This document shows, piece after piece, positions 8,690-30,370 of a stretch of 64,000 bases of DNA. Below the pieces are notes generated by a model. The model was not told the origin of the DNA, searched no databases, and saw only the letters and a list, made by a program, of their open reading frames with translations. Location: positions 1-64,000 of the forward strand of contig JNKP01000006.1 of assembly GCA_000702085.1 (NCBI GenBank). Direction: 5' to 3'. Source of the DNA: Lachnospiraceae bacterium P6A3. Its GTDB lineage: Bacteria > Bacillota > Clostridia > Lachnospirales > Lachnospiraceae. The translations under genes and the position numbers were made by a program. Within the stretch, counting starts at the first letter, position 1; each line of letters opens with the position of its first letter.

Positions 8690-8950
8690 CGTATAGAAAC
8701 CGATGACGAAGAGGAGTAGCAAAGGACGCTTGCTAAGAGAGAGCCCGGGGCGGTGTGATCCGGACAGTAAAGGCTTATGTGAATGGACTTCGGAGGGCAT
8801 GGTGGAAATACCATGACGTGAGGCATACGTAAGTTGCCGGGGATATGAAGGTATCCCGCGAGAGCATGGGTCAAACCATGAAGCAGGGTGGCACCGCGAA
8901 TTAACAGATTCGTCCCTGACAGTATAACAGTACTGTCAGGGATTTTTTTA
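8690..8950 (+). ncRNA. T-box riboswitch, predicted tRNA-Trp specificity
   Basis: The leader carries the invariant T-box sequence AGGGTGGCACCGCGA (8885-8899), the K-turn/GA region GATGACGAAGAGGAGTA near 8703-8719, and AGAGAG in Stem I. Uncharged tRNA pairs with the specifier codon in Stem I and with the UGGN bulge, stabilising an antiterminator. In GTGAATGGACTTCGG the specifier reads TGG (8784-8786), a Trp codon. The N of UGGN is C, which pairs with the G discriminator base of bacterial tRNA-Trp. The next gene is trpE, which agrees. This ~410-bp stretch between GH5 and trpE holds only this leader and the hairpin repeat at 8962-9028. Confidence 0.93.
8914..8949 (+). terminator. T-box intrinsic terminator
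   Basis: CCCTGACAGTA (8914-8924) pairs perfectly with TACTGTCAGGG (8931-8941) around TAACAG and is followed by seven T residues. It lies 15 nt after the T-box sequence and is the OFF state of the leader. Confidence 0.92.
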
Positions 8951-11098: not shown

Positions 11099-11129
11099 GT
11101 GTATCACATTAAAGTAATAAAGTTTTTTG

Positions 11130-11158
11130 TTGACAAATCTTTTATAAAAGTCTATTTT
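11130..11158 (+). promoter_or_regulatory. gltB promoter
   Basis: A consensus TTGACA (11130-11135), a 17-bp spacer and TATTTT (11153-11158). The expected transcription start is about 11164-11167, the first base of the ANTAR-type hairpin. The glnN leader has the same layout. Confidence 0.65.
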
Positions 11159-11166
11159 ATTGAGAA

Positions 11167-11184
11167 AGAGGCAAAGGCGTCTCT
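11167..11184 (+). promoter_or_regulatory. ANTAR-type hexaloop hairpin in the gltB leader
   Basis: AGAGGC (11167-11172) and GTCTCT (11179-11184) form a 6-bp stem with one G-U pair around the hexaloop AAAGGC. A at loop position 1 and G at position 4 are the signature recognised by ANTAR-domain antiterminators. Its 3' arm is part of the 5' arm of the terminator at 11176-11217, so hairpin and terminator exclude each other. Known ANTAR targets have two such hairpins; I see one. Confidence 0.7.
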
Positions 11185-11217
11185 AATGTTTTAATGACAT
11201 TAGAGGCGTCTTTTTCT
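11176..11217 (+). terminator. Regulated intrinsic terminator in the gltB leader
   Basis: GGCGTCTCTAATGT (11176-11189) pairs with ACATTAGAGGCGTC (11197-11210), 14 bp with two G-U pairs and a 7-nt loop, followed by TTTTTCTTTTTTT. It lies 80 nt before gltB and must be disrupted for gltB transcription. Confidence 0.85.
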
Positions 11218-11296
11218 TTTTTTCCGAGGTTGAAATGTTTACCGGACCTTGGGCCCGGTATGGATTACTTAAGACTTATGTTGAAAGGAAGAAGAC

Positions 11297-14200
11297 ATGG
11301 ACAATAATCTTTCATATGACAGAGAACATGATGCGTGCGGAATAGGTGCGGTTGTTAAGATTGACGGTGTACCCGAATATTCCGTTCTCGATGATGCTCT
11401 TACCATCGTTGAAAAGCTTGAGCACAGAGCAGGTAAGGATGCCAGCGGCAAGGTCGGAGACGGTGTCGGTATCATGCTTCAGATCTCTCATCCTTTTTTC
11501 TCTGCTGCATTAAAGAAAGCAGGGATAAAGGTCAGTCATGCGGGAGATTATGGTATAGGTATGTTCTTCCTTCCCCAGGATGAACTTAAGCGCACCTTTG
11601 CAAAGAGACTCTTTGAAGTTATTGCGGATAAAGAGGGCGTTACCGTAAAGGGCTGGAGAGAGGTTCCAACCAATCCCAAGATCCTCGGTGAGAGGGCTCT
11701 TGATTGCATGCCTTCGATCTGGCAGTGCGTTGTCGCAAGACCCGAGGGAGTTCAGAAGGGTATAGACTTTGACAGAAAGCTTTATGTCATCAGAAGAGAG
11801 TTTGAGCAGTCTTCCGATGATACTTATATCTGTTCTCTTTCTTCAAGGACCATAGTCTATAAGGGAATGTTCCTGGTTTCCCAGCTCAGACGTTTCTATG
11901 ACGATCTGCAGAGCAAGGAGTACACCACCGCGGTTGCTCTTGTTCACTCAAGATTTTCCACCAATACTCTTCCCAGTTGGGAGAGAGCTCATCCGTACAG
12001 ATTCATAGCACATAACGGTGAGATCAATACCATCAGAGGTAATGCGGACAGAATGCTTGCACGTGAGGAGACCATGCACTCCGCACTTCTGGAAGCCGAG
12101 AAGAGTAAGATCTATCCCGTTATCTCGGCAAGCGGATCCGACTCCGCCATGCTTGATAACACTCTTGAATTCCTCTACATGAACGGAATGGATCTGCCTC
12201 TTGCAATGATGGCTCTGATTCCCGAGCCCTGGAAGCACAACAGATTCATGAGCGAATCCAAGAAGGATTTCTATCACTACTACGCAACCATGATGGAGCC
12301 CTGGGACGGTCCCGCTGCAATTCTTTTCACCGACGGTGAACTCTTCGGTGCAACTCTCGACCGTAACGGACTTCGTCCTTCCAGATATTATGTAACGGAT
12401 GACAACAGACTGATCCTTTCATCCGAAGTAGGTGTTCTGGATATCGCTCCCGAGCACATCGTAGAAAAATCAAGACTTACCCCCGGAAGAATGCTTCTTG
12501 TCGATATGCGTAAGAAGAGGATTATTTCCGATGAGGAGTGCAAAGAATTCTATGCATCCTCCAATCCTTACGGCGAGTGGCTTGATGCACATCTGATCAG
12601 ACTTAAGGATCTGACCATCCCCAATCATCAGGTTCCCGTTCACACCCAGCCCGAAAGAGACAGATTGTATAAGGTATTCGGATACAGCTACGAGGAGGTT
12701 AAGACATATATCCTTGAAGCTGCCAAGAATGGTGCGGAGCCCACTGTATCAATGGGTCATGACGTGCCTCTTGCATCACTTTCCGATAACTACCCTTTGA
12801 TGTACAGATTCTTCCAGCAGCAGTTTGCCCAGGTTACGAATCCTCCCATCGACTCACTCAGAGAAAAGATTGTTACCGATACAACCGTGTACATCGGATC
12901 CGACGGTGATCTCTTATGTGAAAAGAGTGATAACTGCACCGTACTTGAAGTAAACAACCCGATACTTACCGGTGTTGATGTCATGAAGATACGCTCCATG
13001 AAGCGTAAGGGCTTTATGACCGAGACCATATCACTCCTTTACTACAAGCACACATCCCTGTCCCGCGCGGTCGAGCAGCTTTATCTCTCCGTAGACCGTG
13101 CGGTCTCGCAGGGTGCCAATATCATAATCCTCTCCGACCGCGGAGTAGACGAAAACCATGTGCCCATCCCCGCTCTCCTTGCTGTATCAGCGGTTGAGCA
13201 GCATCTGGTACATACGAAAAAGAGAACGGCGGTATCTCTCATCCTCGAAACTGCCGAGGTAAGAGATGTTCATCAGGCCGCATGCATACTCGGTTTCGGT
13301 GCACGTGCCGTCAACCCTTATCTGGCACATGAGTGTATCGGAGAGCTTATTAATCTGGGACTGCTCGATAAGGATCTCCATACCGCCATCGATGATTTTG
13401 ACAAGGCACTTTTATCCGGCGTTGTTAAGATCGCAGCCAAGATGGGTATCTCAACGATACAGTCATATCAGTCCGCAAGGATCTTTGAAGCCATCGGTCT
13501 TTCCGATGAGGTTATCAGGGATTATTTTGCGGGAGTAGCATCAAGAGTCGGCGGAATCGGAGTCAAGGAACTGGAAGAGGGAATCTCTTACAGACATGAC
13601 AGAGCATTCGATCCCATGGGACTTCCCGTAGATCCCGTACTCGACAGCATGGGCTATCACAACTTAAGAAGCGGAAACGGCAAAGAGGATCATCTCTATT
13701 CTCCCAAGGTTATCGTTCTTCTCCAGCAGGCCGTAAGAACCGGAGATTACGAGAAGTTTAAGGAGTACACCGCGCTTGTTGATGATGCAAAGCATCCTCA
13801 TACCTTAAGAGGGCTTCTTGAATTCGTTCCCGCAGGTAAGAGCATTGATATAGACAAGGTTGAGCCTGTAAGTGAGATCGTTAAGCGTTTCCAGGTAGGC
13901 GCAATGAGTTACGGTTCACTTTCGAGAGAAGCTCATGAGACTATAGCAACCGCAATGAACAGACTCGGCGGAAGATCCAATACCGGTGAAGGCGGTGAAG
14001 CTTCCGACAGATTCGGTACCGAGAGAAATTCTGCGGTCAAGCAGGTTGCATCGGGAAGATTCGGTGTTACGGAAGAATATCTCCTCAGTGCGAGTGAGAT
14101 TCAGATCAAGATGGCTCAGGGCGCAAAGCCCGGCGAAGGCGGAAACCTTCCCGCAGCCAAGGTATACCCCTGGGTTGCCAAGACCAGATGTTCCACACCC

Positions 14201-15826
14201 GGAGTACAGCTGATCTCCCCTCCTCCTCACCATGATATTTATTCCATCGAGGATCTGGCTCAGCTTATTTACGACCTTAAGAACGCAAACAGAAATGCGA
14301 GAATATCAGTAAAGCTTGTATCGGAAGCAGGCGTAGGAACCATAGCATCAGGTGTTGCAAAGGCAGGTGCACAGGTAGTGCTTATCTCCGGTTATGACGG
14401 AGGTACGGGTGCGGCTCCTTACAGTTCGGTTCACGGTGCAGGTCTTCCCTGGGAGCTTGGCGTAGCCGAGACTCATCAGGCACTTATAGACAGCGGACTC
14501 AGATCAAGAGTAAGGATCGAGACGGACGGAAAGCTTATGACGGGACGTGACGTTGCAATCGCAGCACTTCTCGGCGCGGAGGAATTCGGATTTGCCACGG
14601 CTCCCCTTGTATCCCTGGGATGCATGATGATGAGAGTCTGCTCCAAGGATACCTGCCCGGTAGGTATTGCAACCCAGAACGAGATCCTCCGAAAGAGATT
14701 TGCAGGAAAGCCCGAGCATGTTATGAACTTCATGACATTTGCGGCAATGCAGCTTCGTGAGATAATGGCGTACTTAGGATTTAAGACCGTTGATGAGATG
14801 ATCGGACGCACCGACTGTCTGAAAAAGAGAGAAAGCTTCGATCAGCCTCATGCACATACGATCTCTTTTGACGCGATACTTAAACCCGAATTTGCACATA
14901 TCAGTGAGAACAGATTCGATCCGAAGCAGGCATATGATTTTGAACTTGAGAAGACTCTTGATGTAAACAAGCTTCTTCCCTGGTTTGAGAAGGCATCCAA
15001 AACAAAATCTGCTTCATCCAAGGTTTCCGTCAAGGTAAGCTCCACAGACAGAAGTATGGGAACCATTCTCGGATCCGAGATAGTTAAAAAGTACGGTGAC
15101 GGATGCAGTAAGCTTGCAGAAGACAGATACATTGTGGAATGTGAAGGCGGCGGCGGCCAGTCCTTCGGTGCATTCATTCCTCATGGTCTTACCATCAGAC
15201 TTAATGGTGATGCCAACGACGGATTCGGAAAAGGTCTTTCCGGAGGAAAGCTTGTTGTCACTCCTCCCGAGGGCAGCAGGTTTGAAGCTTCGGAGAATAT
15301 CATAGTCGGTAATGTTGCATTGTACGGTGCTACATCCGGTAAGGCTTATATCACCGGTGTTGCGGGCGAAAGATTCTGCGTAAGAAATTCCGGAGCCACT
15401 GCAGTAGCGGAAGGCTGCGGAGACCACGGTCTTGAATACATGACGGGCGGAAGAGTTGTAATACTGGGAAGTACAGGTAAGAACTTTGCCGCAGGTATGA
15501 GCGGCGGTATCGCTTATGTACTTGATAAGGACCACAGCCTATACCGCAGGATCAACAAGGATATGATCGAACTCGAAGAAGTATCCGAGAAGGTTGACCG
15601 TGAAGAACTTAAGACCATACTGGAAGATTATGTGGCTTCAACCGGTTCCAAGCTCGGAAAAGAGATACTTGATAATTTCGATGAAGAGCTTCTTTGCTTC
15701 AAGAAGGTAATCGCAAGAGATTATCAGAGAATGATCAGAACCATCGCCAAGTATGAAGAGGAAGGCGCATCCAGAGAAAGAGCCGAACTTGAAGCATTCA
15801 AAGAAGTTACTAACGCAGCGGTTTAA
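11297..15826 (+). CDS. gltB: Glutamate synthase (NADPH), large subunit
   Basis: A full-length 1509-residue GOGAT large subunit. It hydrolyses glutamine at the N-terminus and channels ammonia to the FMN site, where 2-oxoglutarate becomes glutamate. The N-terminal amidotransferase nucleophile is Cys14 in REHDACGIG, so the start requires processing of about 13 residues, as usual. Later marks are the FMN-domain stretch FQVGAMSYGSLSREAHE, GEGGEASDRF, KPGEGGNLPAAKVYPWVAKTR (in two parts), VSEAGVGTIASGVAKAG, the [3Fe-4S] cysteines in CSKDTCPVGIATQ and the C-terminal beta-helix with GGGGQSFGAF. GAAAGGAAGAAG precedes the ATG. gltD follows after 16 nt. The leader carries an ANTAR-type antitermination switch. 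Confidence 0.97.
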   Translation: MDNNLSYDREHDACGIGAVVKIDGVPEYSVLDDALTIVEKLEHRAGKDASGKVGDGVGIMLQISHPFFSAALKKAGIKVSHAGDYGIGMFFLPQDELKRTFAKRLFEVIADKEGVTVKGWREVPTNPKILGERALDCMPSIWQCVVARPEGVQKGIDFDRKLYVIRREFEQSSDDTYICSLSSRTIVYKGMFLVSQLRRFYDDLQSKEYTTAVALVHSRFSTNTLPSWERAHPYRFIAHNGEINTIRGNADRMLAREETMHSALLEAEKSKIYPVISASGSDSAMLDNTLEFLYMNGMDLPLAMMALIPEPWKHNRFMSESKKDFYHYYATMMEPWDGPAAILFTDGELFGATLDRNGLRPSRYYVTDDNRLILSSEVGVLDIAPEHIVEKSRLTPGRMLLVDMRKKRIISDEECKEFYASSNPYGEWLDAHLIRLKDLTIPNHQVPVHTQPERDRLYKVFGYSYEEVKTYILEAAKNGAEPTVSMGHDVPLASLSDNYPLMYRFFQQQFAQVTNPPIDSLREKIVTDTTVYIGSDGDLLCEKSDNCTVLEVNNPILTGVDVMKIRSMKRKGFMTETISLLYYKHTSLSRAVEQLYLSVDRAVSQGANIIILSDRGVDENHVPIPALLAVSAVEQHLVHTKKRTAVSLILETAEVRDVHQAACILGFGARAVNPYLAHECIGELINLGLLDKDLHTAIDDFDKALLSGVVKIAAKMGISTIQSYQSARIFEAIGLSDEVIRDYFAGVASRVGGIGVKELEEGISYRHDRAFDPMGLPVDPVLDSMGYHNLRSGNGKEDHLYSPKVIVLLQQAVRTGDYEKFKEYTALVDDAKHPHTLRGLLEFVPAGKSIDIDKVEPVSEIVKRFQVGAMSYGSLSREAHETIATAMNRLGGRSNTGEGGEASDRFGTERNSAVKQVASGRFGVTEEYLLSASEIQIKMAQGAKPGEGGNLPAAKVYPWVAKTRCSTPGVQLISPPPHHDIYSIEDLAQLIYDLKNANRNARISVKLVSEAGVGTIASGVAKAGAQVVLISGYDGGTGAAPYSSVHGAGLPWELGVAETHQALIDSGLRSRVRIETDGKLMTGRDVAIAALLGAEEFGFATAPLVSLGCMMMRVCSKDTCPVGIATQNEILRKRFAGKPEHVMNFMTFAAMQLREIMAYLGFKTVDEMIGRTDCLKKRESFDQPHAHTISFDAILKPEFAHISENRFDPKQAYDFELEKTLDVNKLLPWFEKASKTKSASSKVSVKVSSTDRSMGTILGSEIVKKYGDGCSKLAEDRYIVECEGGGGQSFGAFIPHGLTIRLNGDANDGFGKGLSGGKLVVTPPEGSRFEASENIIVGNVALYGATSGKAYITGVAGERFCVRNSGATAVAEGCGDHGLEYMTGGRVVILGSTGKNFAAGMSGGIAYVLDKDHSLYRRINKDMIELEEVSEKVDREELKTILEDYVASTGSKLGKEILDNFDEELLCFKKVIARDYQRMIRTIAKYEEEGASRERAELEAFKEVTNAAV

Positions 15827-15842
15827 AAGGCAGGGAGATAAA

Positions 15843-17306
15843 ATGGGTAAACAGACAGGTTTTCTTGAATACGAAAGAACAGAGAACGAAGAGATCCCGG
15901 CTAAGGAAAGGATCAAAGGCTATAAAGAATTCCATACCTTTCAGACCGAAGAGACCAGGAGAAAACAGGGTGCCAGATGCATGAACTGCGGAGTTCCTTT
16001 CTGCCAGTCGGCCATGAGCCTTTCGGGAATGGTAGTCGGTTGCCCTCTTCACAATCTGATCCCCGAGTGGAACGATGCAATCTACAAGGGAGAAGATTCG
16101 CATGCACTTGCAAGACTCCTCAAGACAAACAGATTCCCCGAGTTCACCGGAAGAGTATGCCCCGCACTTTGCGAAAAAGCATGTATCTGCGGACAGTATG
16201 ACGATCCCGTTACGGTAAGAGACAATGAGCTTTTCCTCATCGAGTCCGGTTATAAGAATGGCTGGATGAAAGCTCAGCCTCCGGTAAAAGAAAGCGGAAA
16301 GAGCGTTGCTGTTATAGGCAGCGGCCCTTCCGGACTTTCCGCAGCGGATGCTCTTCGTAAAAGAGGACATAAGGTAACCGTATTTGAAAGAGAAGACCGT
16401 ATCGGCGGACTGCTCATGTACGGAATTCCCAATATGAAACTCGACAAGAGTGTCATTTCCAGAAGGCAGCAGCTCATGGAGGAGGAAGGCATAGAGTTTA
16501 AGACCGGTGTTAAGGTCGGTGTCGACATTAAAGCCTCGGAGCTTCGCAAGAAATATGATGCCATAGTCCTTGCATGCGGTGCAAAGAAGGCAAGAGCACT
16601 TAATGCGGAAGGAATCGAAGGAACAGACGGTATATACTTTGCAGTTGATTTCCTGACGGCAGCAACCAAGAATGTACTCGGTATCAAGAAGCTCCCCGCT
16701 CACTTTGATGCAAAGGGAAAGAACGTAATAATAGTAGGCGGCGGAGATACGGGTAATGACTGTATCGGAACCGTTATCAGAATGGGATGCAAATCCGTTA
16801 CCGCTATCGAGATGATGCCCAAGCCTCCCGTAAACAGAGCGGAAAACAATCCCTGGCCCGAATGGCCCAAGACTCTCAGAACCGATTACGGTCACGCGGA
16901 AGCCATCGAGGTATTCGGAGAAGATCCCAGAGTATTTAAGACCACCGTCACCAAAGTCTTTTCCAAGAAGGGACATATATGCGAGGTAGAACTTTCGGAG
17001 GTTTATTTCGACAAGGGAAAACTCTGTACCAAGAAGGGAACCGAGAGAAAGGTTAAGTGCGATCTTCTTCTGGTTGCAGCGGGATTCATAGGAGCAGAAT
17101 CTGAAGTGCCCGAAGATTTCGGACTTGAGATGACCGCAAGAGGCGTGGTCTCCACACCCGAAGGAAAATACTCCACCAATGTTCCCGGCGTTTTCAGCGC
17201 AGGAGATATGAGAAGAGGACAGAGCCTCGTTGTATGGGCACTTTCCGAAGGCAGAGAGTGCGCTGCGGAGGTTGATGAATACCTTATGGGATATCGTAAC
17301 GGCTGA
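15843..17306 (+). CDS. gltD: Glutamate synthase, small subunit
   Basis: A 487-residue FAD/NAD(P)H electron-transfer subunit that reduces GltB. The N-terminal [4Fe-4S] Cys are visible: about residues 46, 49, 54 and 67 (RCMNCGVPFC and GCPLH) and 106, 110, 114 and 116 (RVCPALCEKACIC). The FAD loop is VIGSGPSGLSAADAL, the NADPH loop IIVGGGDTGNDC, and the second FAD motif GVFSAGDMRRGQSLVVWA. The frame is open upstream into gltB, but GGGAGAT just before the ATG at 15843 and homology to MGKxTGFLE-type starts fix the start. It forms an operon with gltB. Confidence 0.96.
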   Translation: MGKQTGFLEYERTENEEIPAKERIKGYKEFHTFQTEETRRKQGARCMNCGVPFCQSAMSLSGMVVGCPLHNLIPEWNDAIYKGEDSHALARLLKTNRFPEFTGRVCPALCEKACICGQYDDPVTVRDNELFLIESGYKNGWMKAQPPVKESGKSVAVIGSGPSGLSAADALRKRGHKVTVFEREDRIGGLLMYGIPNMKLDKSVISRRQQLMEEEGIEFKTGVKVGVDIKASELRKKYDAIVLACGAKKARALNAEGIEGTDGIYFAVDFLTAATKNVLGIKKLPAHFDAKGKNVIIVGGGDTGNDCIGTVIRMGCKSVTAIEMMPKPPVNRAENNPWPEWPKTLRTDYGHAEAIEVFGEDPRVFKTTVTKVFSKKGHICEVELSEVYFDKGKLCTKKGTERKVKCDLLLVAAGFIGAESEVPEDFGLEMTARGVVSTPEGKYSTNVPGVFSAGDMRRGQSLVVWALSEGRECAAEVDEYLMGYRNG

Positions 17307-17325
17307 TGAAAAAGTCTGCGCTTGA

Positions 17326-17389
17326 TTGACAATCTCTGCCATCATATAGAATAATAATTTTCAGTGAGAAAACGGGCGCCCGGGCGCCC
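17326..17389 (+). promoter_or_regulatory. Promoter and GC-rich palindrome upstream of the type I glutamine synthetase
   Basis: TTGACA (17326-17331) lies in the gltD-GSI gap, with TAGAAT (17347-17352, spacer 15) or the overlapping GAATAA (spacer 17) as -10 candidates. Downstream, GGGCGCCCGGGCGCCC at 17374-17389 is a perfect 16-bp palindrome that can fold as GGGCGC-CCGG-GCGCCC. It has no T-tract and no A1/G4 hexaloop, so it is neither a standard terminator nor an ANTAR target. It could be an operator or RNA-stabilising hairpin. Confidence 0.45.
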
Positions 17390-17412
17390 ATGGTAAATAT
17401 CTTGGAGGAGAC

Positions 17413-18630
17413 ATGAATTACACTTATCAGGAAGTGAAACAATTCGTCGAAGAAGAAGATGTCAAATTCATACGTCTTGCTTTTTGCGATGTATTCGGAA
17501 AGCTCAAGAATGTTTCGATTATGCCTATGGAGCTTGACCGTGCATTTTCCGAAGGTATAGCGATCGATGCATGGAGCATAACGGGATTTGACTGTTTCGA
17601 CAGATCGGATCTCTTCCTTCATCCCGATCCGGATACGCTTGCAATCCTTCCCTGGAGACCCGAGCACGGACGCGTTATCAGAATGTACTGTAATATCACA
17701 TGGCCCGACGGAAAGCCTTTCGAATGCGATTCCAGAACCATTCTTCAGGGTGCCATTGATGCTGCGGAAAAGAAGGGATATACCTTCAGATTCGGAACCG
17801 AGCAGGAATTCTATCTGTTCAGAAACGATCTGGAGGGAGAGCCTACGGACATTCCTTATGACAATGCGGGATATATGGATGTGGGTCCCGCAGACAGATG
17901 TGCGAACATCAGAAGAGAGATCTGCATTACTCTCGAGCAGATGGGTATCATGCCCGAAAGCTCACATCATGAAGAGGGTCCCGGACAAAACGAGATTGAT
18001 TTCAGATACTGCGATGCGCTTAAGTCCGCAGATGATGCCATGACTTTCAGAGGCGTCGTGGGAGCCATTGCAAACAGAAACGGTGCCACCGCAGTCTTTT
18101 CACCCAAGCCTTTTAAGGGAAAGCCCGGCAACGGCATGCACATTAATTTCTCCGTAAAAAAGGGAAATGAAGACGCAGATCTGGAGCCTGTTATTGCGGG
18201 TATTCTCGAGCACATTGCCGAGATGACTCTTATCCTTAATCCCACCAGGGAAAGCTATGACAGAATAGGTGCGCTCAAAGCCCCCGGATATATTACCTGG
18301 GCCAAAGAGAACCGCTCTGCCCTTGTAAGAATACCCGCTGCTTTCGGCGAGTATAAGAGAGGAGAACTCAGATCTCCCGATGCTTGTGCAAATCCTTATC
18401 TTGCATTTGCTCTTTTGATTTATGCCGGACTTTCGGGACTTGAAAAAGGTCTTGCCGCTCCCGAGCCCGTTAATACCAATCTTTCAACTGCTCCGGAAGA
18501 TGTTACCAAGAATCTGAAGAAGTTACCTTTGACATTGGAAGATGCCGTATCCGTAACAGGAAAGGGAAGCTTTGTAAAGGAAACGCTTCCCGCAGAGATT
18601 ATTGCATCATATCTTGATCTGAACAGATAA
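17413..18630 (+). CDS. glnA: Type I glutamine synthetase, short form
   Basis: A 405-residue glutamine synthetase, shorter than the usual 440-470. It makes glutamine from glutamate, ammonia and ATP. Core motifs are present: CDVFGKLKNVS at the N-terminus, FGTEQEFYLF (metal ligands), GPGQNEIDFRY, GNGMHINFS (His at the glutamate site), NPTRESYDRIG, ENRSALVRIPA and ELRSPDACANPYLAFA. No adenylylation Tyr motif of the GSI-beta type is seen, so control by adenylylation is unlikely. GGAGGAG precedes the ATG by 4 nt. It lies between gltBD and an ANTAR regulator; a second, type III enzyme is encoded at 22482. Confidence 0.9.
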   Translation: MNYTYQEVKQFVEEEDVKFIRLAFCDVFGKLKNVSIMPMELDRAFSEGIAIDAWSITGFDCFDRSDLFLHPDPDTLAILPWRPEHGRVIRMYCNITWPDGKPFECDSRTILQGAIDAAEKKGYTFRFGTEQEFYLFRNDLEGEPTDIPYDNAGYMDVGPADRCANIRREICITLEQMGIMPESSHHEEGPGQNEIDFRYCDALKSADDAMTFRGVVGAIANRNGATAVFSPKPFKGKPGNGMHINFSVKKGNEDADLEPVIAGILEHIAEMTLILNPTRESYDRIGALKAPGYITWAKENRSALVRIPAAFGEYKRGELRSPDACANPYLAFALLIYAGLSGLEKGLAAPEPVNTNLSTAPEDVTKNLKKLPLTLEDAVSVTGKGSFVKETLPAEIIASYLDLNR

Positions 18631-18649: not shown

Positions 18650-19231
18650 ATGCAGGCTGAAAGAGTATACAGCGTGCTGCTTGTATCCGCAGCGGAAAAA
18701 ATGAATACCAGGCTGACTGCCTTTTTTGCGGGAGGAGGATTTGAACCCGTAACTGTGGTAGACAGTGTTGCAAAGGCGCAGCGAAGGCTTCTTGACCGGG
18801 ATTACGACCTTGTTATTGTTAACTCGCCACTTCCCGATGACTTCGGAAAAAAGCTTTCCGTAGATGTGGTTTCGGAAAGCGGGGGAGTATCGCTTCTCCT
18901 CGTAAAGAGCGATATGTATGACGAAATCTCGTCAAGCATGATACCGAGAGGCGTCATGGTGGCAAAAAGGCCTCTTGACGAATCCATGCTCGATCAGCTG
19001 ATAAATATCATGTGCAGCGTCTGCGAGCGTCTTAAGGGCATCAGAAAGAAGACTATGAGCCTTGAGGATAAGATGGAAGAGATCAGGCTCGTTAACAGAG
19101 CTAAATGGGCACTTATCAAGTCATGTCATATGACCGAAGAGGATGCTCACAGATATATACAGAAGCAGGCTATGGATCTGTGCCTGAGTAAAAAAGAAAC
19201 AGCGGAAAACATTCTTAAGACTTACGGATAA
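18650..19231 (+). CDS. ANTAR-domain antiterminator with a degenerate receiver
   Basis: A 193-residue protein with an N-terminal receiver-like domain (about 5-125) and a C-terminal ANTAR RNA-binding domain (about 136-190; NRAKWALIKSCHMTEEDAHR and QKQAMDLCLSKKETAENIL match the family). ANTAR proteins bind hexaloop hairpins and stop terminators from forming. The receiver is atypical: Asn58 in DLVIVNSPLPDD replaces the phospho-acceptor Asp and the N-terminal acidic pair is lost (LLVSAAEKM), while Lys106 in AKRP remains. Phosphorylation control is therefore unlikely; dimerisation by another signal or partner is an inference. It lies 19 nt after glnA and between two leaders with ANTAR-type hairpins (11167, 22393), its probable targets. 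Confidence 0.88.
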   Translation: MQAERVYSVLLVSAAEKMNTRLTAFFAGGGFEPVTVVDSVAKAQRRLLDRDYDLVIVNSPLPDDFGKKLSVDVVSESGGVSLLLVKSDMYDEISSSMIPRGVMVAKRPLDESMLDQLINIMCSVCERLKGIRKKTMSLEDKMEEIRLVNRAKWALIKSCHMTEEDAHRYIQKQAMDLCLSKKETAENILKTYG

Positions 19232-22356: not shown

Positions 22357-22385
22357 TTGACAACTTAAATTTACAGTAGTAATTT
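22357..22385 (+). promoter_or_regulatory. glnN promoter
   Basis: TTGACA (22357-22362), a 17-bp spacer and TAATTT (22380-22385). The expected start, about 22392, coincides with the base of the ANTAR-type hairpin, as in the gltB leader. Confidence 0.65.
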
Positions 22386-22392
22386 ATCACTT

Positions 22393-22414
22393 GAAAAGGC
22401 AAAGGCGTCTTTTC
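22393..22414 (+). promoter_or_regulatory. ANTAR-type hexaloop hairpin in the glnN leader
   Basis: GAAAAGGC (22393-22400) and GTCTTTTC (22407-22414) form an 8-bp stem with one G-U pair around the hexaloop AAAGGC (22401-22406), identical to the gltB loop and with A1 and G4 in place. The loop and 3' arm are reused in the downstream terminator. It starts 7 nt after the -10 box. Confidence 0.75.
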
Positions 22415-22450
22415 TGTAACAGTACAGAAAAGGCACCTTTGTCTTTTTCT
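22401..22450 (+). terminator. Regulated intrinsic terminator in the glnN leader
   Basis: AAAGGCGTCTTTTCTGT (22401-22417) pairs with ACAGAAAAGGCACCTTT (22424-22440), with one mismatch and one wobble, then GTCTTTTTCTGTTT. Formation excludes the ANTAR hairpin. It ends about 30 nt before glnN and should gate the whole downstream operon. Confidence 0.85.
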
Positions 22451-22481: not shown

Positions 22482-24584
22482 ATGGAAACACATTCAGTAC
22501 CTGATTATTTCGGAGAACTCGTATTTGACGACCGCCAGATGAGAGCAAGACTTTCATCAAAGGTTTATGCATCCCTCAGAAAGACCATCGATGAGGGCAA
22601 GAAACTCGATCCCAAGGTTGCGGAATATGTAGCAGAGGCCATGAAAGAATGGGCACTCGAAAAAGGCGCAACTCACTATACACACTGGTTCCAGCCCCTT
22701 ACCGGCGTAACCGCAGAAAAGCACGATTCATTCATAAGCCCTTCACCTGACGGAAGTGTCATAATGGAATTCTCGGGCAAGGAACTCATCCAGGGCGAGC
22801 CCGACGCATCTTCATTCCCTACCGGCGGTATCCGCGCGACATTCGAAGCAAGAGGATATACGGCATGGGATCCTACTTCTTACGCATTCATCAAAGATAA
22901 GACCCTTTGCATTCCCACTGCATTCTGTTCATACAGCGGAGAAGCACTCGATAAGAAGACTCCCCTTCTTCGTTCAATGGAAGCTCTCAATAAGCAGGCT
23001 CTTCGTATCCTTGCCCTTTTCGGAAACACCACCGCAAAGAACGTAAGAACTTCCGTAGGCCCCGAGCAGGAGTACTTCCTTATCACCAAGGAAATGTATG
23101 AGCAGCGTCCCGACCTTAAGTTCACCGGAAGAACACTCTTCGGTGCAAAGTCTCCCAAGGGTCAGGAGATGGACGATCATTACTTCGGAGTTATCAAACC
23201 CCGTGTACAGGCATTCATGAACGATCTTAACAAGGAACTCTGGAAGCTGGGAATCCTTGCAAAGACCGAGCATAACGAAGTTGCTCCCGCTCAGCACGAG
23301 CTTGCTCCCATTTATTCAACCACCAACATCGCAACCGACCAGAACCAGCTCACCATGGAGATCATGCAGAAGGTTGCTTCCAAGCACGGACTTGTATGCC
23401 TGCTTCATGAGAAGCCTTTCGCAGGAGTAAACGGATCCGGTAAGCACAACAACTGGTCGATGGCAACGGATACCGGTATCAACCTTCTCTCCCCCGGAGA
23501 TACTCCCGCAGAGAACGCTCAGTTCCTTCTTTTCCTGTGTGCGGTAATCAAGGCTGTCGATGATTATCAGGATCTCCTCAGACTTTCCGTTGCAACCGCA
23601 GGAAACGACCACAGACTCGGAGCTAACGAGGCACCTCCCGCAATCATCTCCGTATTCCTCGGAGACGAGCTCAGCGCAATCCTTGATGCCATTGAGGAAG
23701 ACAAGCCTTATAAGGGAGCAGAGCAGAAGATCATGAAGCTGGGTGTTGATGTTCTTCCCGCATTCCCCAGAGACAACACTGACCGTAACAGAACTTCACC
23801 CTTTGCATTCACCGGTAACAAGTTCGAGTTCAGAAGCCTCGGCTCCTCCAACTCAATCGCATGTGCAAACATCATGCTCAACACTGTTGTTGCAGAGTCA
23901 CTTAAGATCTATGCGGACAGACTTGAGGGTGCCGAAGATTTCGAGAAGACTCTTCACGAGATGATCCGTAAGACCATCAAGGATCACAAGAGAATTCTCT
24001 TCAACGGAAACGGATATGACGATGCATGGGTTAAGGAAGCTACAGAGGTCAGAGGACTTTGCAACTACAGAACCACTCCCGACTGCATGCCTCACATTCT
24101 CGATGAGAAGAACGTTAAGCTCCTTACTTCTCACGGAGTATTTACTCAGAAAGAGATTGAGTCCCGTTGCGAGATCATGCTTGATAACTACTGCAAGCAG
24201 GTTCACATCGAGGCAAACACCATGATCGACATGGCACTAAAACAGATCCTTCCCGCTATCACCTGCTATGCGGATAAGCTTTCTTCCGGAGTCATCGCGA
24301 AGAAGTCGGCTTGCGAAGGCATCGCCTGTGAATATGAAAAGAGCGTTATATCAAGACTTTCCGTTCTTGCGGATCAGATCTACTCAAGAACCGGTGAACT
24401 CGAAAGTGCTGTTCTTAAGCTTGCGGATGCTAAGGATGTTATCGAAGAAAGCGCAATGATCCGTGACACCGTTCTTCCCAAGATGGGAGAACTCAGAGCA
24501 TGTGCGGACGAAGCAGAGACACTCGTATCCAAAGAGTGCTGGCCTCTTCCTTCGTACGGCGATCTCCTCTTCGGAGTCAGATAA
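22482..24584 (+). CDS. glnN: Type III glutamine synthetase
   Basis: A 700-residue GSIII enzyme, the large dodecameric form common in Bacteroidetes, cyanobacteria and Clostridia. Distinctive parts are [11 protein letters not shown] near the N-terminus, [16 protein letters not shown], the catalytic stretch [73 protein letters not shown] and the GSIII-specific C-terminal region. AGGAGGAA precedes the ATG. It is the second glutamine synthetase in this window and heads an operon of glutamine-dependent enzymes under an ANTAR-type leader, so its expression should rise with nitrogen limitation (inference). Confidence 0.96.
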
Positions 24585-24593
24585 AAAATATTC

Positions 24594-24621
24594 TTCACCT
24601 GCACCGCAAGGTGCAGGTGAA
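24594..24621 (+). other. Perfect GNRA-capped hairpin between glnN and asnB
   Basis: TTCACCTGCACC (24594-24605) pairs perfectly with GGTGCAGGTGAA (24610-24621) around a GCAA tetraloop. There is no T-tract after it, only ATAATTCGG, so it probably does not end transcription. It may protect the upstream glnN message from 3' decay and set different transcript levels within the operon. Confidence 0.6.
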
Positions 24622-24641
24622 ATAATTCGGAGGATGAAAAA

Positions 24642-26228
24642 ATGTGTTCGATAATGGCGTGGTGTAAAAAAGCCGCTGACGAGAAAAAATTTACCGCCGC
24701 ACTTGATGAGATGACATCAAGAGGACCTGACGACGGAAGAGTGATAAAAACAGAAGGAGGCCTTCTCGGATTCAGAAGACTTTCCATCATGGGTCTTACA
24801 CCCGAAGGAATGCAGCCCTTCGAAATGAAGGACTGCGCTGTTGTTTGTAACGGTGAAATTTACGGATTTGCTCCCTTAAGAGATGAACTTAAGAGCAAAG
24901 GATATACCTTTAAGAGTGACAGCGACTGTGAGATCCTGCTTCCCATGTATTTTGAATACGGAACCGAGATGTTCAAGAAGCTGGATGCGGAATTTGCATG
25001 TGTTATCTATGACGGCAGAAATGATGAGTGGATCGCCGCAAGAGATCCCATCGGAATAAGACCTCTTTATTACACATTCGATAAAGGCGGAAGTATTATT
25101 TTCGCAAGCGAGCCCAAGAGCCTGATGCCTCTGACCGAGGAGCAGATCTATCCCTTCCCTCCCGGTCATTACTATAAAGACGGTAAGTTTACCTGCTTCA
25201 ACGATATCGCAAAGCCCGACAAGGTTATCAAGGATGACATTGAGACGGTTTGTGCGAATATCAAAGAAAAGCTTATTGCAGGCGTAGAAAAGAGGCTTAT
25301 CGCGGATGCTAAAGTCGGTTTCCTCCTTTCCGGCGGACTTGATTCATCCCTCGTATGCAGCATTGCTGCAAGAAAGTCCGATAAGCCCATACGAACATTT
25401 GCGATTGGCATGAACGAAGATGCCATTGATCTTAAATATGCCAAGCAGACCGCAGATTTCCTCGGTGCAGATCACACCGAAGTTATCATTACCAAAGAAG
25501 ACGTACTCGAGGCACTTCCCAAGGTAATTCATCTTCTGGGAACTTACGACATCACCACCATAAGAGCTTCGATGGGTATGTACCTGCTCTGCAAAGCAAT
25601 CCATGAGCAGAACGATATCAGGGTAATCCTTACCGGCGAAGTTTCCGATGAGATCTTCGGATATAAATATACGGACTTTGCTCCCAGCGCCGAGGCCTTC
25701 CAGGCTGAAGCAGAAAAGAGAGTGAGCGAGCTTCATATGTATGATGTTCTCCGTGCGGACAGATGTATTTCCGTAAACTCTTTGGAAGCAAGAGTTCCTT
25801 TCGGAGATCTTGATTTCGTAAAGTATTGCATGTCCATCGATCCCGAGATGAAGCGCAATCACTACAACAAGGGTAAATACCTCCTTCGTCACGCTTTCGA
25901 AGGCGGAGATTATCTCCCCGATGAGATCCTTATGCGTGAGAAGGCAGCTTTCTCCGATGCTGTCGGACACTCCATGGTAGATCATCTGAAGGAGTATGCG
26001 GAGAAGCAATATACCGAAGAGGAATTCAAAGAGGGCTGCAAGAAATACACTCATGCGCGTCCCTTCACCAAAGAGTCCCTTCTTTACAGAGAAATTTTTG
26101 AGAAGTTCTATCCCGGCCAGTCCCGCATGGTTAAGGACTTCTGGATGCCCAACAAGGAGTGGGAAGGCTGTAATGTTAACGATCCTTCCGCAAGAGTACT
26201 GTCCAACTACGGGGCAAGTGGTGTATAA
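24642..26228 (+). CDS. asnB: Asparagine synthetase (glutamine-hydrolysing)
   Basis: A 528-residue AsnB. The N-terminal Ntn amidotransferase has its nucleophile at Cys2 (MCSIMAW), with the substrate loop RGPDDGR and VVCNGEIYG following. The C-terminal synthetase domain has the PPi-loop SGGLDSSLVCSIAA, then TGEVSDEIFGY and NSLEARVPFGDLDF, all intact. It makes asparagine from aspartate, glutamine and ATP. TCGGAGGATG forms the ribosome site. It lies 57 nt after glnN with no terminator between, so it is probably in the same operon. Confidence 0.94.
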   Translation: MCSIMAWCKKAADEKKFTAALDEMTSRGPDDGRVIKTEGGLLGFRRLSIMGLTPEGMQPFEMKDCAVVCNGEIYGFAPLRDELKSKGYTFKSDSDCEILLPMYFEYGTEMFKKLDAEFACVIYDGRNDEWIAARDPIGIRPLYYTFDKGGSIIFASEPKSLMPLTEEQIYPFPPGHYYKDGKFTCFNDIAKPDKVIKDDIETVCANIKEKLIAGVEKRLIADAKVGFLLSGGLDSSLVCSIAARKSDKPIRTFAIGMNEDAIDLKYAKQTADFLGADHTEVIITKEDVLEALPKVIHLLGTYDITTIRASMGMYLLCKAIHEQNDIRVILTGEVSDEIFGYKYTDFAPSAEAFQAEAEKRVSELHMYDVLRADRCISVNSLEARVPFGDLDFVKYCMSIDPEMKRNHYNKGKYLLRHAFEGGDYLPDEILMREKAAFSDAVGHSMVDHLKEYAEKQYTEEEFKEGCKKYTHARPFTKESLLYREIFEKFYPGQSRMVKDFWMPNKEWEGCNVNDPSARVLSNYGASGV

Positions 26229-26260
26229 CTGTTTGGGTAAATTTGACAGGTAGGTATTAA

Positions 26261-27871
26261 ATGATGACGAAATATATCTTTGTAACCGGCGGTGTTGTAT
26301 CAGGATTGGGAAAAGGAATCACCGCAGCTTCACTGGGAAGACTTCTTAAGGCAAGAGGTCTTAAGGTTGCTGCCCAGAAACTCGATCCCTATATTAACGT
26401 AGACCCCGGAACCATGAGTCCTTATCAGCATGGCGAAGTCTATGTCACCGAGGACGGTGCCGAGACAGACCTTGACCTCGGCCATTATGAGAGATTCATC
26501 GACGAGGACCTCAACAAATACTCCAATCTTACTTCCGGAAGAGTATATTGGAATGTCCTCAACCGTGAGAGAAGAGGCGAGTACCTCGGCTCCACCGTTC
26601 AGATAATCCCTCACATCACCGATGAGATCAAGAATTTCGTCTACAGTGTCGGCAAAAAGACCGAGGCTGATGTTGTTATAACCGAGATCGGAGGAACTGT
26701 GGGTGACATCGAGTCACAGCCCTTTATAGAGGCGGTCCGCCAGATCTCACTTGAAGTAGGGAGAGAGAACAGCCTGTTTATCCATGTTACTCTCGTTCCT
26801 TTCCTTCACGGATCGGAAGAGCATAAATCAAAACCCACCCAGCATTCCGTTAAGGAACTTCAGGGAATGGGTATCAATCCCGGCATCCTGATCTTAAGAT
26901 GCGACGAGCCTCTTGAGGACGAGATTTTCAAGAAGATCGCACATTTCTGTAATGTTAAGGAAGACTGCGTAATAGAAAACATCACCCTCCCTTTCCTGTA
27001 TGAGGCCCCTCTCATGCTGGAGGATTCGGGATTTTCAAAGATCGTCTGCAGAGAACTGGGCATCGAAGCCGGTGAGCCCGATCTGGATCACTGGAAAGAG
27101 ATGGTCGATCGCATCAAGAACCTTAAGAAGACTGCGGTCATCGGCCTTGTAGGAAAGTATGTACAGCTTCATGATGCATATCTGTCCGTTGCAGAGGCAC
27201 TTCGCCACGCGGGATATGAGAATGATGCAAAGGTTGAGATCAAATGGATCGATTCCGAGAAGATCACCGAGGAAAATGCAGAGGAGATATTTAAGGGTAT
27301 TGACGGCATAATCGTTCCCGGAGGATTCGGCGACAGAGGCATTGAGGGAATGATCACTTCCGCAAAATACGCCAGAACCCACGATGTACCTTATTTCGGA
27401 ATATGCCTCGGAATGCAGATCGCATGTATAGAATATGCAAGAAACGTTCTGGGTTATGAAGATGCAAATTCGGGAGAATTCGATGAGCTCTGCGCACATA
27501 AAGTCATCGACTTCATGCCCGGACAGAGCGATACCATCAATAAAGGCGGAACGCTCAGACTCGGAGCATATCCCTGCAGGATAAGCGAGGGCTCCAAGAT
27601 GAAGGAGTACTACGGAAAAGAAGAGATTTCCGAGCGTCACCGTCACAGATATGAATTCAATAATGATTTCAAAGAAGCTTTCGAGAAAGCGGGAGCAACA
27701 TTTGCGGGTATGTCCCCCGACGGAAAACTCGTGGAGGAGATGGAGATCACCGAAAAAGATTTCTATCTGGGAGTTCAGTACCATCCTGAATTCAAGTCCA
27801 GACCCGACAAAGCTCATCCTCTTTTCAAAGGATTCGTAAAGGAGGCATGTAAACGAAATGGCAATTCATGA
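26261..27871 (+). CDS. pyrG: CTP synthase
   Basis: A 536-residue enzyme aminating UTP to CTP with glutamine and ATP. The synthase domain opens with [21 protein letters not shown] and contains [20 protein letters not shown] and [18 protein letters not shown]. The C-terminal amidotransferase has [11 protein letters not shown], nucleophile Cys in [11 protein letters not shown], and the His-Glu pair in [12 protein letters not shown]. The ORF begins with two Met codons; either could be the start. It ends 14 bases inside purF, so the two are coupled. Confidence 0.96.
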
Positions 27872-29285
27872 AGAATGCGGAGTTTTCGGAATCGTCGGAA
27901 GTAGGAATAATGACATTGCACGTGATATTTACCACGGACTGTACGCCCTGCAGCACAGAGGGCAGGAAAGTTGCGGTATCGTGGTAAATGATGACGGTGT
28001 ATTTGCAACTCACAAAGACCTCGGCCTGGTTGGCGAGGTCTTTTCCGAGACTGAACTTAATGCTCTTCCGGGCGGCTGCATGGCCATAGGTCATGTCAGA
28101 TACGGAACCACCGGGGGAAATATCGCAAGCAATATCCAGCCCATGGTCGTTAGTCATCAAAAGGGTAACCTGGCCCTTGCTCATAACGGAAATCTGGCAA
28201 ATTCCCTTGATCTGCGTGATTCTCTGGAACTTTCGGGTGCTATTTTCCACTCCACCAGCGATACGGAGACCATCTGCTACATGATCACAAGGGAAAGGCT
28301 TAAAACAGACAGCATCGAGAAGGCGGTTCTCGGTGCGGTTAAATATCTTGAGGGTGCATACAGCCTTGTTATGATGTCCTCCACAAAACTCCTGGCGGTT
28401 AGGGATCCTCACGGATTCAGACCGCTTTGTTACGGTACGAGAGAGGACGGAAGCTTTGTGGTTGCGTCCGAAAGCTGTGCTCTCAATGCGGTTGGTGCTA
28501 CCTTCGTAAGAGATATCGAGCCCGGCGAAATGCTGGTCTTCCAGGCCGATAAACCGTTTTCGGAGCCCGTTTCCTACACGGAAAACTGCGGAGGCAAAAA
28601 AAGTCCCTGTATTTTTGAATATATCTATTTTGCAAGACCCGATTCTGTGATAGATTGTATAGCGGTGCATGATACGAGAGTCAGGGCAGGAAGAATTCTT
28701 GCCAGGGAATATCCCGTAGAGGCGGACGTGGTTGTAGGCGTTCCCGATTCCGGACTTGATGCTGCCATAGGCTATTCAAGGGAGAGCGGAATCCCCTACG
28801 AGATCGGACTCGTTAAGAATAAATATGTGGGCAGAAGCTTTATAGCACCCTCACAGGATCAGAGAACAGATACTGTCAGGATAAAGCTCAGTCCCGTAAA
28901 GAGTGTCCTTGAAGGAAAAAGAGTGGTCCTTATCGACGATTCGATAGTAAGAGGAACCACCAGCAAGCGGATCATAAATATCCTGAGGGATGCGGGAGCC
29001 GGCGAGATTCACTTGAGGATCTCTTCGCCTCCGTTCAGACATCCCTGCTTCTACGGAGTGGATATCGATTCCGAGGACAAGCTGATCGCAAACCACCATA
29101 CACCCGAGGAAATAGCAGCTCTTACCGGAGCTGATTCAATAGGATTCCTTCCTATAGACAGTCTTGAAGAGATGAGCGGAGTAAAGTCTTTCTGCAGCGC
29201 TTGTTTTGACGGGGATTATCCCACAAAGATACCCTCGGATCCCAGGAAGGACAGATTCGAGAAAAAACTTTCGGAGGTCAGGTAA
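27858..29285 (+). CDS. purF: Amidophosphoribosyltransferase
   Basis: A 475-residue glutamine PRPP amidotransferase, the first step of purine synthesis. The Ntn nucleophile is Cys7 in [11 protein letters not shown], implying a very short (6-residue) propeptide compared with the 11 residues of the Bacillus subtilis type. The PRPP loop is [15 protein letters not shown]-terminal cysteines in HPCFYG and FCSACFDG fit the [4Fe-4S]-containing class. It overlaps pyrG by 14 bases, with AAAGGAGG inside pyrG as ribosome site, and its stop shares one base with the carA start. No other pur genes are adjacent; its placement follows glutamine use instead. Confidence 0.95.
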
Positions 29286-30370
29286 TGATTTACAAGGGGA
29301 AGAAAAGAAAACTGATAATGGAAGGCGGCAGTGAATACGTCGGCTTCGGATTCGGAGAAGATACTGGCAACAGAGTCTGCGAGCTTGTATTTAATACTTC
29401 TCCCGTCGGTTATCAGGAGATAATGTCCGACCCCTCTTACACCGACCAGTTCGTTACCATGGCTTATCCTTTAATAGGAAATTACGGCATCAATGAAGAC
29501 GACTACGAAACAAAGCATCCTACCATAGGCGGTTTCGTGGTAAGAGACTATAACGATCTTCCTTCCAATTTCAGAAGCAACAAGACCTTCTCACAGACTC
29601 TCAAGGAGCTGGGCATTCCCGGCATCACCGGAGTTGACACCAGAGAAATAGTCCGTAAGATCAGAGACGTAGGAACAAGAAAAGCTCTCATAACAGACGA
29701 AAGCACTACATTGGAAGAGGGACTTAAGATACTCGAAGAAACCGTCATGGCTCATGACCAGGTTCCCAGAGTAAGCAGACCCCTCATAGAAAAATATATT
29801 TCGGTTAATTCCAAATATCATATCGCTGCCATTGACTTCGGTATGAAAGAGAACATTCTCCGTTCTTTTTTCAACAAGAACTGCAGCGTAACCGTATTCC
29901 CCTGGAATGCCACGGCTGAGGAAGTGGAGTCTGTCAAACCCGACGGAATCTTCCTTTCGAACGGCCCCGGAGATCCGGAAGATGTTAAGGAAGCAATCGA
30001 ACTGGTAAGAACGCTTCGCGGCAAATATCCCATTTTCGGAATCTGCCTCGGACACCAGATCATCTCTCTTGCCTGCGGAGCCAAGACCTACAAGCTTAAG
30101 TTCGGTCACCGTGGCGGAAATCATCCCGTTAAAAATCTTGAGACAGGCAAAACCGATATTACATCACAGAACCATTCCTATGCGGTGGATGAAAATTCAC
30201 TTGAGGGAACGGGTCTTGTTGTGACACATAAAAATCTCCTGGACGGAACCGTAGAGGGAGTTAAGTGTGAGAAGGATAAGATCTTCAGCGTGCAGTACCA
30301 TCCGGAGAGTTCGCCCGGACCGCACGACAGTTCATATCTGTTTGATGAATTTCTTAAACTGATGGATTAA
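29285..30370 (+). CDS. carA: Carbamoyl-phosphate synthase, small subunit
   Basis: A 361-residue glutaminase subunit that supplies ammonia to CarB for arginine and pyrimidine synthesis. The N-terminal domain has [15 protein letters not shown] and [19 protein letters not shown]. The class I amidotransferase domain has [11 protein letters not shown], nucleophile Cys in [11 protein letters not shown], and the His-Glu of [15 protein letters not shown]. It starts on the last base of purF (TAATG), a coupled arrangement, and carB follows after 28 nt. Confidence 0.96.

Follow-up and report, generated by a model that had tools for sequence, protein, structure and literature searches.

The window analyzed here, a 64,000-nucleotide stretch of DNA from Lachnospiraceae bacterium P6A3, carries a row of genes in which gltB and gltD are followed by a glnA-type glutamine synthetase gene and, directly behind it, by a gene encoding an ANTAR protein (Table 1). 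An earlier note on this DNA had described, upstream of gltB, a TTGACA-17-TATTTT promoter, an 8-nt gap, and a 6-bp hairpin with the loop AAAGGC, i.e., with A at loop position 1 and G at position 4 (A1/G4), and these positions and letters were confirmed base by base: the -35 element (11130-11135) and the -10 element (11153-11158) are separated by a 17-nt spacer, and 8 nt further on the arms AGAGGC (11167-11172) and GTCTCT (11179-11184) enclose the loop (11173-11178). The 3' arm of the hairpin is shared with an intrinsic terminator, as had been claimed, but the terminator stem comprises 15 bp (11176-11190 pairing with 11196-11210) rather than the 14 bp reported. In addition, the loop A's can form pairs with the U's at the start of the T-run. 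Folded alone, the hairpin reaches -7.2 kcal/mol, with 8 of 200 shuffles equally good, and in the fold of 11160-11210 the terminator prevails at -21.3 kcal/mol, a value equaled by none of 200 shuffles. The C-G closing pair, the loop, and the terminator overlap match those of an ANTAR P2 hairpin, and the hairpin fits for the most part the consensus given for eut hairpins, AGCAANGRRGCUY (PMC3369931); loop position 6 is a purine in the eut type, whereas here it is usually C.

Table 1. Positions of the genes and regulatory features in the window and of the amtB module elsewhere in the genome
Feature	Position	Strand	Support
Predicted gltB promoter, TTGACA-17-TATTTT	11130..11158	+	Base-by-base check; relatives
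Single antiterminator hairpin (P2-like), 6 bp, hexaloop AAAGGC	11167..11184	+	Fold, stem covariation
gltB intrinsic terminator, T-rich tail, including 3' arm of hairpin	11176..11224	+	Fold, covariation
gltB, glutamate synthase large subunit	11297..15826	+	
gltD, glutamate synthase small subunit (likely start)	15840..17306	+	
glnA-type glutamine synthetase	17413..18630	+	
ANTAR protein, receiver-like half with Asn at EutV's Asp site	18650..19231	+	Sole PF03861 match in genome
Predicted glnN promoter, TTGACA-17-TAATTT	22357..22385	+	
glnN-leader hairpin, 8 bp, hexaloop AAAGGC (second module copy)	22393..22414	+	Main-clade glnN leaders, 15/15
glnN-leader intrinsic terminator	22404..22447	+	
glnN, type III glutamine synthetase	22482..24584	+	
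amtB module, third copy	Contig 5, 191855-191892	-	Loop-plus-T-run pattern

The Rfam search over the gltB leader returned no match at gathering score, and the 17 matches scoring below it, at E values of up to 10, appear chance-like. The only gathering-score match in the window is a T-box leader at 8694-8920 (RF00230, 106 bits), probably tryptophan responsive, which precedes a trpE-like gene (8986) and then a trpG-like gene (10502). Directly 5' of the gltB -35 element lies an A/T-rich block, approximately TAAAGTAATAAAGTTTTTTG (11109-11129), kept in the relatives L033 to L036, L046, and L047 and possibly serving as an UP element or activator site. The gap between gltD and glnA (17310-17412) contains TTGACA and a GGGCGCCCGGGCGCCC palindrome without a hexaloop module; a lone-hairpin module occupies this gap in the relatives L231 and L240 and, by reading, also in L216, L217, L220, L222, and L232.

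The earlier note had named the gltB leader as the target, which holds for gltB, although the target is not limited to it: the module belongs to a regulon that includes glnN in the window and amtB elsewhere in the genome. These three modules, each with a predicted promoter, were picked by reading each place at which the loop is combined with a T-run, a pattern that in itself is without enrichment, given its 21 matches in the genome against 29 in a reversed control. Retained from the 21 were gltB, glnN, amtB (entered twice), and a doubtful site (L119) before a sodium:alanine symporter gene, the stem of which has an A.C mismatch and which is absent from the nine covariance model matches at E≤5; the remaining matches, resembling coding sequence or end-of-gene terminators, were dropped. 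The covariance model gave E values of 3.6e-7 (gltB), 1.1e-4 (amtB), and 1.3e-4 (glnN), but since these three are among the 34 modules from which it was built, their strong scores arise by construction, and the independent discovery is that made with the loop pattern. Weaker matches lie before an amino-acid-binding protein gene (E of 0.07; L295, contig 2: 89722), on the strand opposite the glnN copy (0.22), and before a PucR-like regulator gene (1.1; L297, contig 2: 88388), the first and last of which are possible additional targets. The dual-loop pattern CAANGGNG..CAANGGNG showed no excess in the genome (6 matches versus 21 in the reversed control). Downstream of glnN, the region 22482-30370 continues with asnB (Pfam) and then frames reading as pyrG, purF, and carA, all for glutamine-using enzymes, so that one attenuator in the glnN leader may feed all of these genes.

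In related genomes, 130 leaders (70 gltB, 30 glnN, and 30 amtB) were read wherever the locus or a fetched stretch was at hand, and A1/G4 modules overlapping a terminator were found in 32, 22, and 21 of them, respectively, giving 85 modules in total. Among 28 same-genus gltB leaders, 16 carry the arrangement TTGACA-17-(-10)-8 nt-AGAGGC hairpin, 3 have another form (single in G019 and G024, dual in G021), and in 9 the module search found none. Throughout the 16 main-clade leaders, TTGACA, the spacer length of 17 nt, and the gap of 8 nt before the hairpin are constant while the spacer letters differ, the -10 element is TATTTT in 14, and the loops read AAAGGC, AACGGC, AATGGC, AAAGAC, AAAGGA, or AAAGTC, with A1 and G4 invariant; in G003 and G011, where loop base 5 or 6 is altered, the far arm of the terminator is altered along with it. 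The main-clade glnN leaders have one 8-bp hairpin each (15 of 15), the last pair being G-C or G-U. Covariation, which the earlier note had proposed to look for in the AAAGGC stem upstream of gltB, was found in both competing stems. For the antiterminator stem, 95.3% of cells were paired, with 38 double changes against 10.5 after shuffling and a score of 0.758 against 0.294, figures that are favored by the choice of the 34 aligned rows for stems of at least 4 bp; for the terminator, 89.8% were paired, with 102 double changes against 27.8 and a score of 0.567 against 0.236. In a test free of this selection, a flanking stem of at least 4 bp was present in 40 of 57 distinct AANGG terminators, compared with 8.2 when 5' arms were swapped. 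The hairpin-terminator module is beyond chance, given that its stems covary, that the unselected test agrees, and that it recurs at functionally related genes.

The protein encoded at 18650 contains the only ANTAR domain detected in a whole-genome search (54.4 bits for PF03861; curated cutoff, 27.3). Its Asn58, which is Asn in all 19 aligned sequences, aligns with the Asp of the EutV motif LMDIQMP; if that residue is, as we take it to be, the phosphorylated Asp54 of EutV (PMC8934654), the receiver would lack the EutV-type phospho-acceptor. As read from the alignment, EutV Met172 is retained as Met175, while Lys147 and Lys143 are replaced by Arg150 and Arg146; the replacement of Tyr164, which stacks on G4, by His167 and of Arg142 by Ile145 counts against the ANTAR reading. 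The predicted structure (pLDDT, 89.6) comprises a receiver-like domain, a long helix, and an ANTAR bundle, as in EutV, Rv1626, and AmiR, the only proteins among its best six PDB matches, with EutV the best (TM score of 0.78 against RNA-bound EutV). AmiR is a pseudo-receiver ANTAR protein under the control of AmiC, and the protein studied here resembles it in its receiver-like half without phospho-acceptor, its coiled coil, its ANTAR domain, and its fold; AmiR acts on amidase genes through a two-hexaloop leader, whereas no amiC-like partner of the 18650 protein is known. The lack of the Asp makes a partner protein, comparable to AmiC, the likelier input.

Across 114 genomes, an ANTAR domain was present in 87 and the module (E≤0.05) in 72, counts that rest on elimination for 7 of the ANTAR-negative and 22 of the module-negative genomes. 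The module occurs in 67 of 87 ANTAR-positive but only 5 of 27 ANTAR-negative genomes (P=7e-8, with relatives that are not independent), and when the 25 genomes contributing sequences to the model are set aside, it occurs in 44 of 64 and 3 of 25, respectively (P=1e-6, kinship ignored). At the order level only, the module was present in 14 of 23 ANTAR-positive and 2 of 21 ANTAR-negative genomes (P=5e-4), or in 12 of 21 and 2 of 21 once the model genomes were removed (P=0.0025), both again ignoring kinship. The covariance model search had no match in 20 of the 87 ANTAR-positive genomes; of the five ANTAR-negative genomes with a module, three belong to the same genus and are draft assemblies (90, 83, and 68% complete) and two have matches at E of 0.023 and 0.044. 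The reading of the hairpin as an ANTAR target, put forward in the earlier note, is thus supported both by the fit of loop, closing pair, and terminator overlap to P2 and by modules being common where the genome has an ANTAR gene and rare where it has none.

The position of the hairpin relative to the promoter was examined across the modules, since the earlier note had held that the predicted start of transcription leaves no room for an upstream partner hairpin (P1). A promoter (score of at least 9 of 12) ending 2 to 16 nt before the stem was found for 50 of 75 first modules (mean of 3.5 and maximum of 7 in shuffles), and in 35 of 59 strong cases the distance was 7 or 8 nt, so that the stem is predicted to start at about the first transcribed base. 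The corresponding distance for amtB in the same genome is 25 nt, with little room for P1 plus a linker, the linkers given for P1 and P2 being 5 to 12 nt in eut leaders (PMC3369931) and 2 to 25 nt in an actinobacterial survey (PMC8164766). The promoters do abut the hairpin, as claimed, yet missing room is not the whole cause, since modules located between genes (L143, L145, L161, L167, and L168), where on upstream reading there is room and no P1, and the second modules of tandem leaders are likewise without a partner; the between-gene modules may still have a hidden promoter.

We consider it quite probable that the gltB leader is a nitrogen-status attenuator of glutamate synthase, the lone 5'-terminal hexaloop of which is held by the 18650 ANTAR protein. 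The transcript would start at, or a few bases from, the foot of the hexaloop hairpin, and by default the terminator would capture the 3' arm of the hairpin and stop transcription before gltB. By analogy to EutV, the active ANTAR protein would hold the hexaloop and leave the terminator incomplete, allowing the polymerase to enter gltB; gltD, glnA, and the ANTAR gene itself may lie on the same transcript, and the protein would act likewise on the lone hairpins before glnN and amtB. Read-through, which would occur when the ANTAR protein is active, is expected under nitrogen limitation if the system behaves like that of NitR. That one hairpin is sufficient for antitermination is inferred. A hairpin-stabilized pause was also considered and rejected, the occurrence of a pyrimidine-G about 11 nt past the hairpin base being flat (10 of 71 at offset 11; 2 to 16 of 71 elsewhere).

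The leader could alternatively be explained without an ANTAR protein. If it were an ordinary terminator of read-through from the upstream gene, the hairpin would be a by-product of a GC-rich stem and an A-tract, and indeed AAAGGCG...CGCCTTT is a frequent terminator form, AAAGGC resembles an ordinary terminator base, and AANGG stands at the base of 26 of 227 other terminators. This is very unlikely in view of the leader's own conserved promoter, its position before a gene start, the covariation of the additional 5' arm, and the sizes of the loops: when every competing hexaloop hairpin was taken whatever its letters, 129 leader terminators yielded 93 (A1 and G4 in 85 of 93 and in 44 of 52 distinct ones), against 15, 10, and 17 competing loops of 4, 5, and 7 nt, the 50 loops of 8 nt in the same leaders being taken to be mostly hexaloop hairpins counted one pair shorter. 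Terminators as such do not favor hexaloops, as competing loops of 4, 5, 6, and 7 nt were about equally numerous (47, 45, 51, and 40) in 227 control terminators from 23 named loci outside the model matches; an A1/G4 hexaloop competitor was present in 12 of these, at least six of which (L216, L217, L220, L232, L235, and L237) look like modules overlooked by the model. Attenuation by a leader peptide, for which a short frame is readable from a TTG at 11160, is extremely improbable: the frame was rejected because its start varies in relatives, where CTGCA replaces TTGAGAA, no space is left for a ribosome-binding site, and such a mechanism would not demand A1 and G4. A genuine attenuator the 5' hairpin of which is read by a non-ANTAR factor, either another RNA-binding protein or the choice of start site, also seems improbable to us; with the hairpin at the predicted 5' end, a shift of the start by a few bases would delete its 5' arm, but start-site choice leaves unexplained the conserved A1 and G4, the between-gene modules, and the association with ANTAR genes.

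Another explanation retains the ANTAR protein and regards the leader as a normal two-hairpin target, with a partner hairpin that either is noncanonical (in loop size or by a stem of very few base pairs) or is carried by a transcript extending further upstream. In its favor, genetics in E. faecalis found both hairpins to be essential for EutV in vivo (PMC3369931), and real dual leaders exist in relatives, namely before gltB in G021 (L081) and G037 (L086), with linkers of 26 and 29 nt, and before glnN in G077 (L148), the last being outside the 85 modules because no terminator was called there; single and dual layouts are therefore both present among relatives. We nevertheless find it unlikely, as 78 of the 85 modules have no second A1/G4 hairpin of at least 4 bp within 75 nt upstream. 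Seven modules do have one (0.8 in shuffles), of which two are the gltB duals and five represent a separate upstream attenuator 38 to 58 nt away, and the single-hairpin reading of the earlier note stands on these counts. The opposing case that it had named, a second A1/G4 hexaloop further upstream, was also sought, and no such hairpin (at least 4 bp, at least two G-C pairs) occurs in the 420 nt 5' of gltB (L032), which means that even a far-upstream start would bring in no canonical partner; nor do AANG-loop partner hairpins of at least 3 bp occur in the gltB and glnN leaders of the window. The predicted promoters adjoining the hairpin likewise speak against a partner. As to layout, the first hairpin of the dual leader L081 itself adjoins the promoter, and five amtB leaders (L157, L158, L174, L179, and L180) carry two full hairpin-terminator modules in tandem, their hairpins 38 to 58 nt apart.

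The dual EutV-type targets (E. faecalis eut, K. oxytoca nasF, and P. aeruginosa amiE; PMC3369931) share with the leaders described here the C-G-closed A1/G4 hexaloop, the overlap of the hairpin 3' arm with the terminator 5' arm, an ANTAR gene in the same genome, and nitrogen genes downstream, but differ in that P1 is absent from the leaders in the window, where a lone hairpin stands at the predicted start of transcription. That ANTAR proteins control nitrogen genes is already known: according to a review (PMC6316151; primary report, Stutz 2007), NitR, an ANTAR protein of C. saccharobutylicum, induces glutamine synthetase and glutamate synthase (GS/GOGAT) genes on nitrogen limitation. The combination of an ANTAR protein with GS/GOGAT targets in a clostridium is common to both cases, and the gltB/glnN/amtB system may belong to the NitR type; compared with the review's description of NitR, it has a single hexaloop and a wider target set. 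The 2022 structure paper shows the EutV dimer contacting one hexaloop and considers single sites possible where transcription imposes no time limit (PMC8934654). In that proposal, as in the leaders described here, a single hexaloop would be the smallest unit bound by an ANTAR dimer; the difference is that the lone hairpin here lies inside a transcription attenuator. Two published surveys (PMC3369931 and PMC8164766) demanded two hairpins per target, so lone-hairpin targets would have escaped them. Given that two hairpins are required for EutV and single sites have only been raised as possible, a lone-hexaloop attenuator regulon, and with it a class of ANTAR attenuators without upstream P1, appears on sequence grounds to be new, as judged against the open-access literature and, for NitR, against the review's description.

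With slightly less assurance than for the gltB leader itself, we regard it as likely that these modules form a class of clostridial ANTAR attenuators with a lone 5'-end hexaloop, a nitrogen/glutamine regulon, a dispensable P1, and pseudo-receiver proteins as readers; the proposed targets are gltB, glnN, and amtB and, in relatives, also asnB and purF-, glmS-, and NAD-synthase-like genes. If this is true, the dual-hairpin rule applies to just part of the ANTAR world, and a natural single-hexaloop regulon lets the conflict be tested between E. faecalis genetics, in which both hexaloops are needed, and the EutV structure, with a dimer on one. It also raises the questions of what role P1 plays and how a lone hairpin outruns the terminator, and makes the module a candidate mechanism of nitrogen control in rumen Lachnospiraceae.

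From the further model matches, 20 regions (22 matches) situated away from gltB, glnN, and amtB were examined, with Pfam run on ten of the next genes and, where it named one of several similar genes, the others assigned by reading. The genes following these extra modules encode asparagine synthase (3), a glutamine amidotransferase with phosphoribosyltransferase, purF-like (2), a carbon-nitrogen hydrolase with NAD synthase (2), a glutamine amidotransferase with SIS domain, glmS-like (1), an ABC ATPase (1), an aminotransferase (1), a circularly permuted ATP-grasp protein (2), a PPDK_N-domain protein (6), a chemoreceptor-like protein (1), and a transposase-like frame (1), none being found in two cases. 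In six relatives (L265, L267, L269, L271, L272, and L273), the module precedes a similar large protein, which carries an ATP-binding domain of the pyruvate-phosphate-dikinase type (assigned by Pfam in L267). Lone hairpins were also present in named loci that include Oscillospiraceae, Cellulosilyticum, Sporanaerobium, and Clostridium jeddahtimonense.
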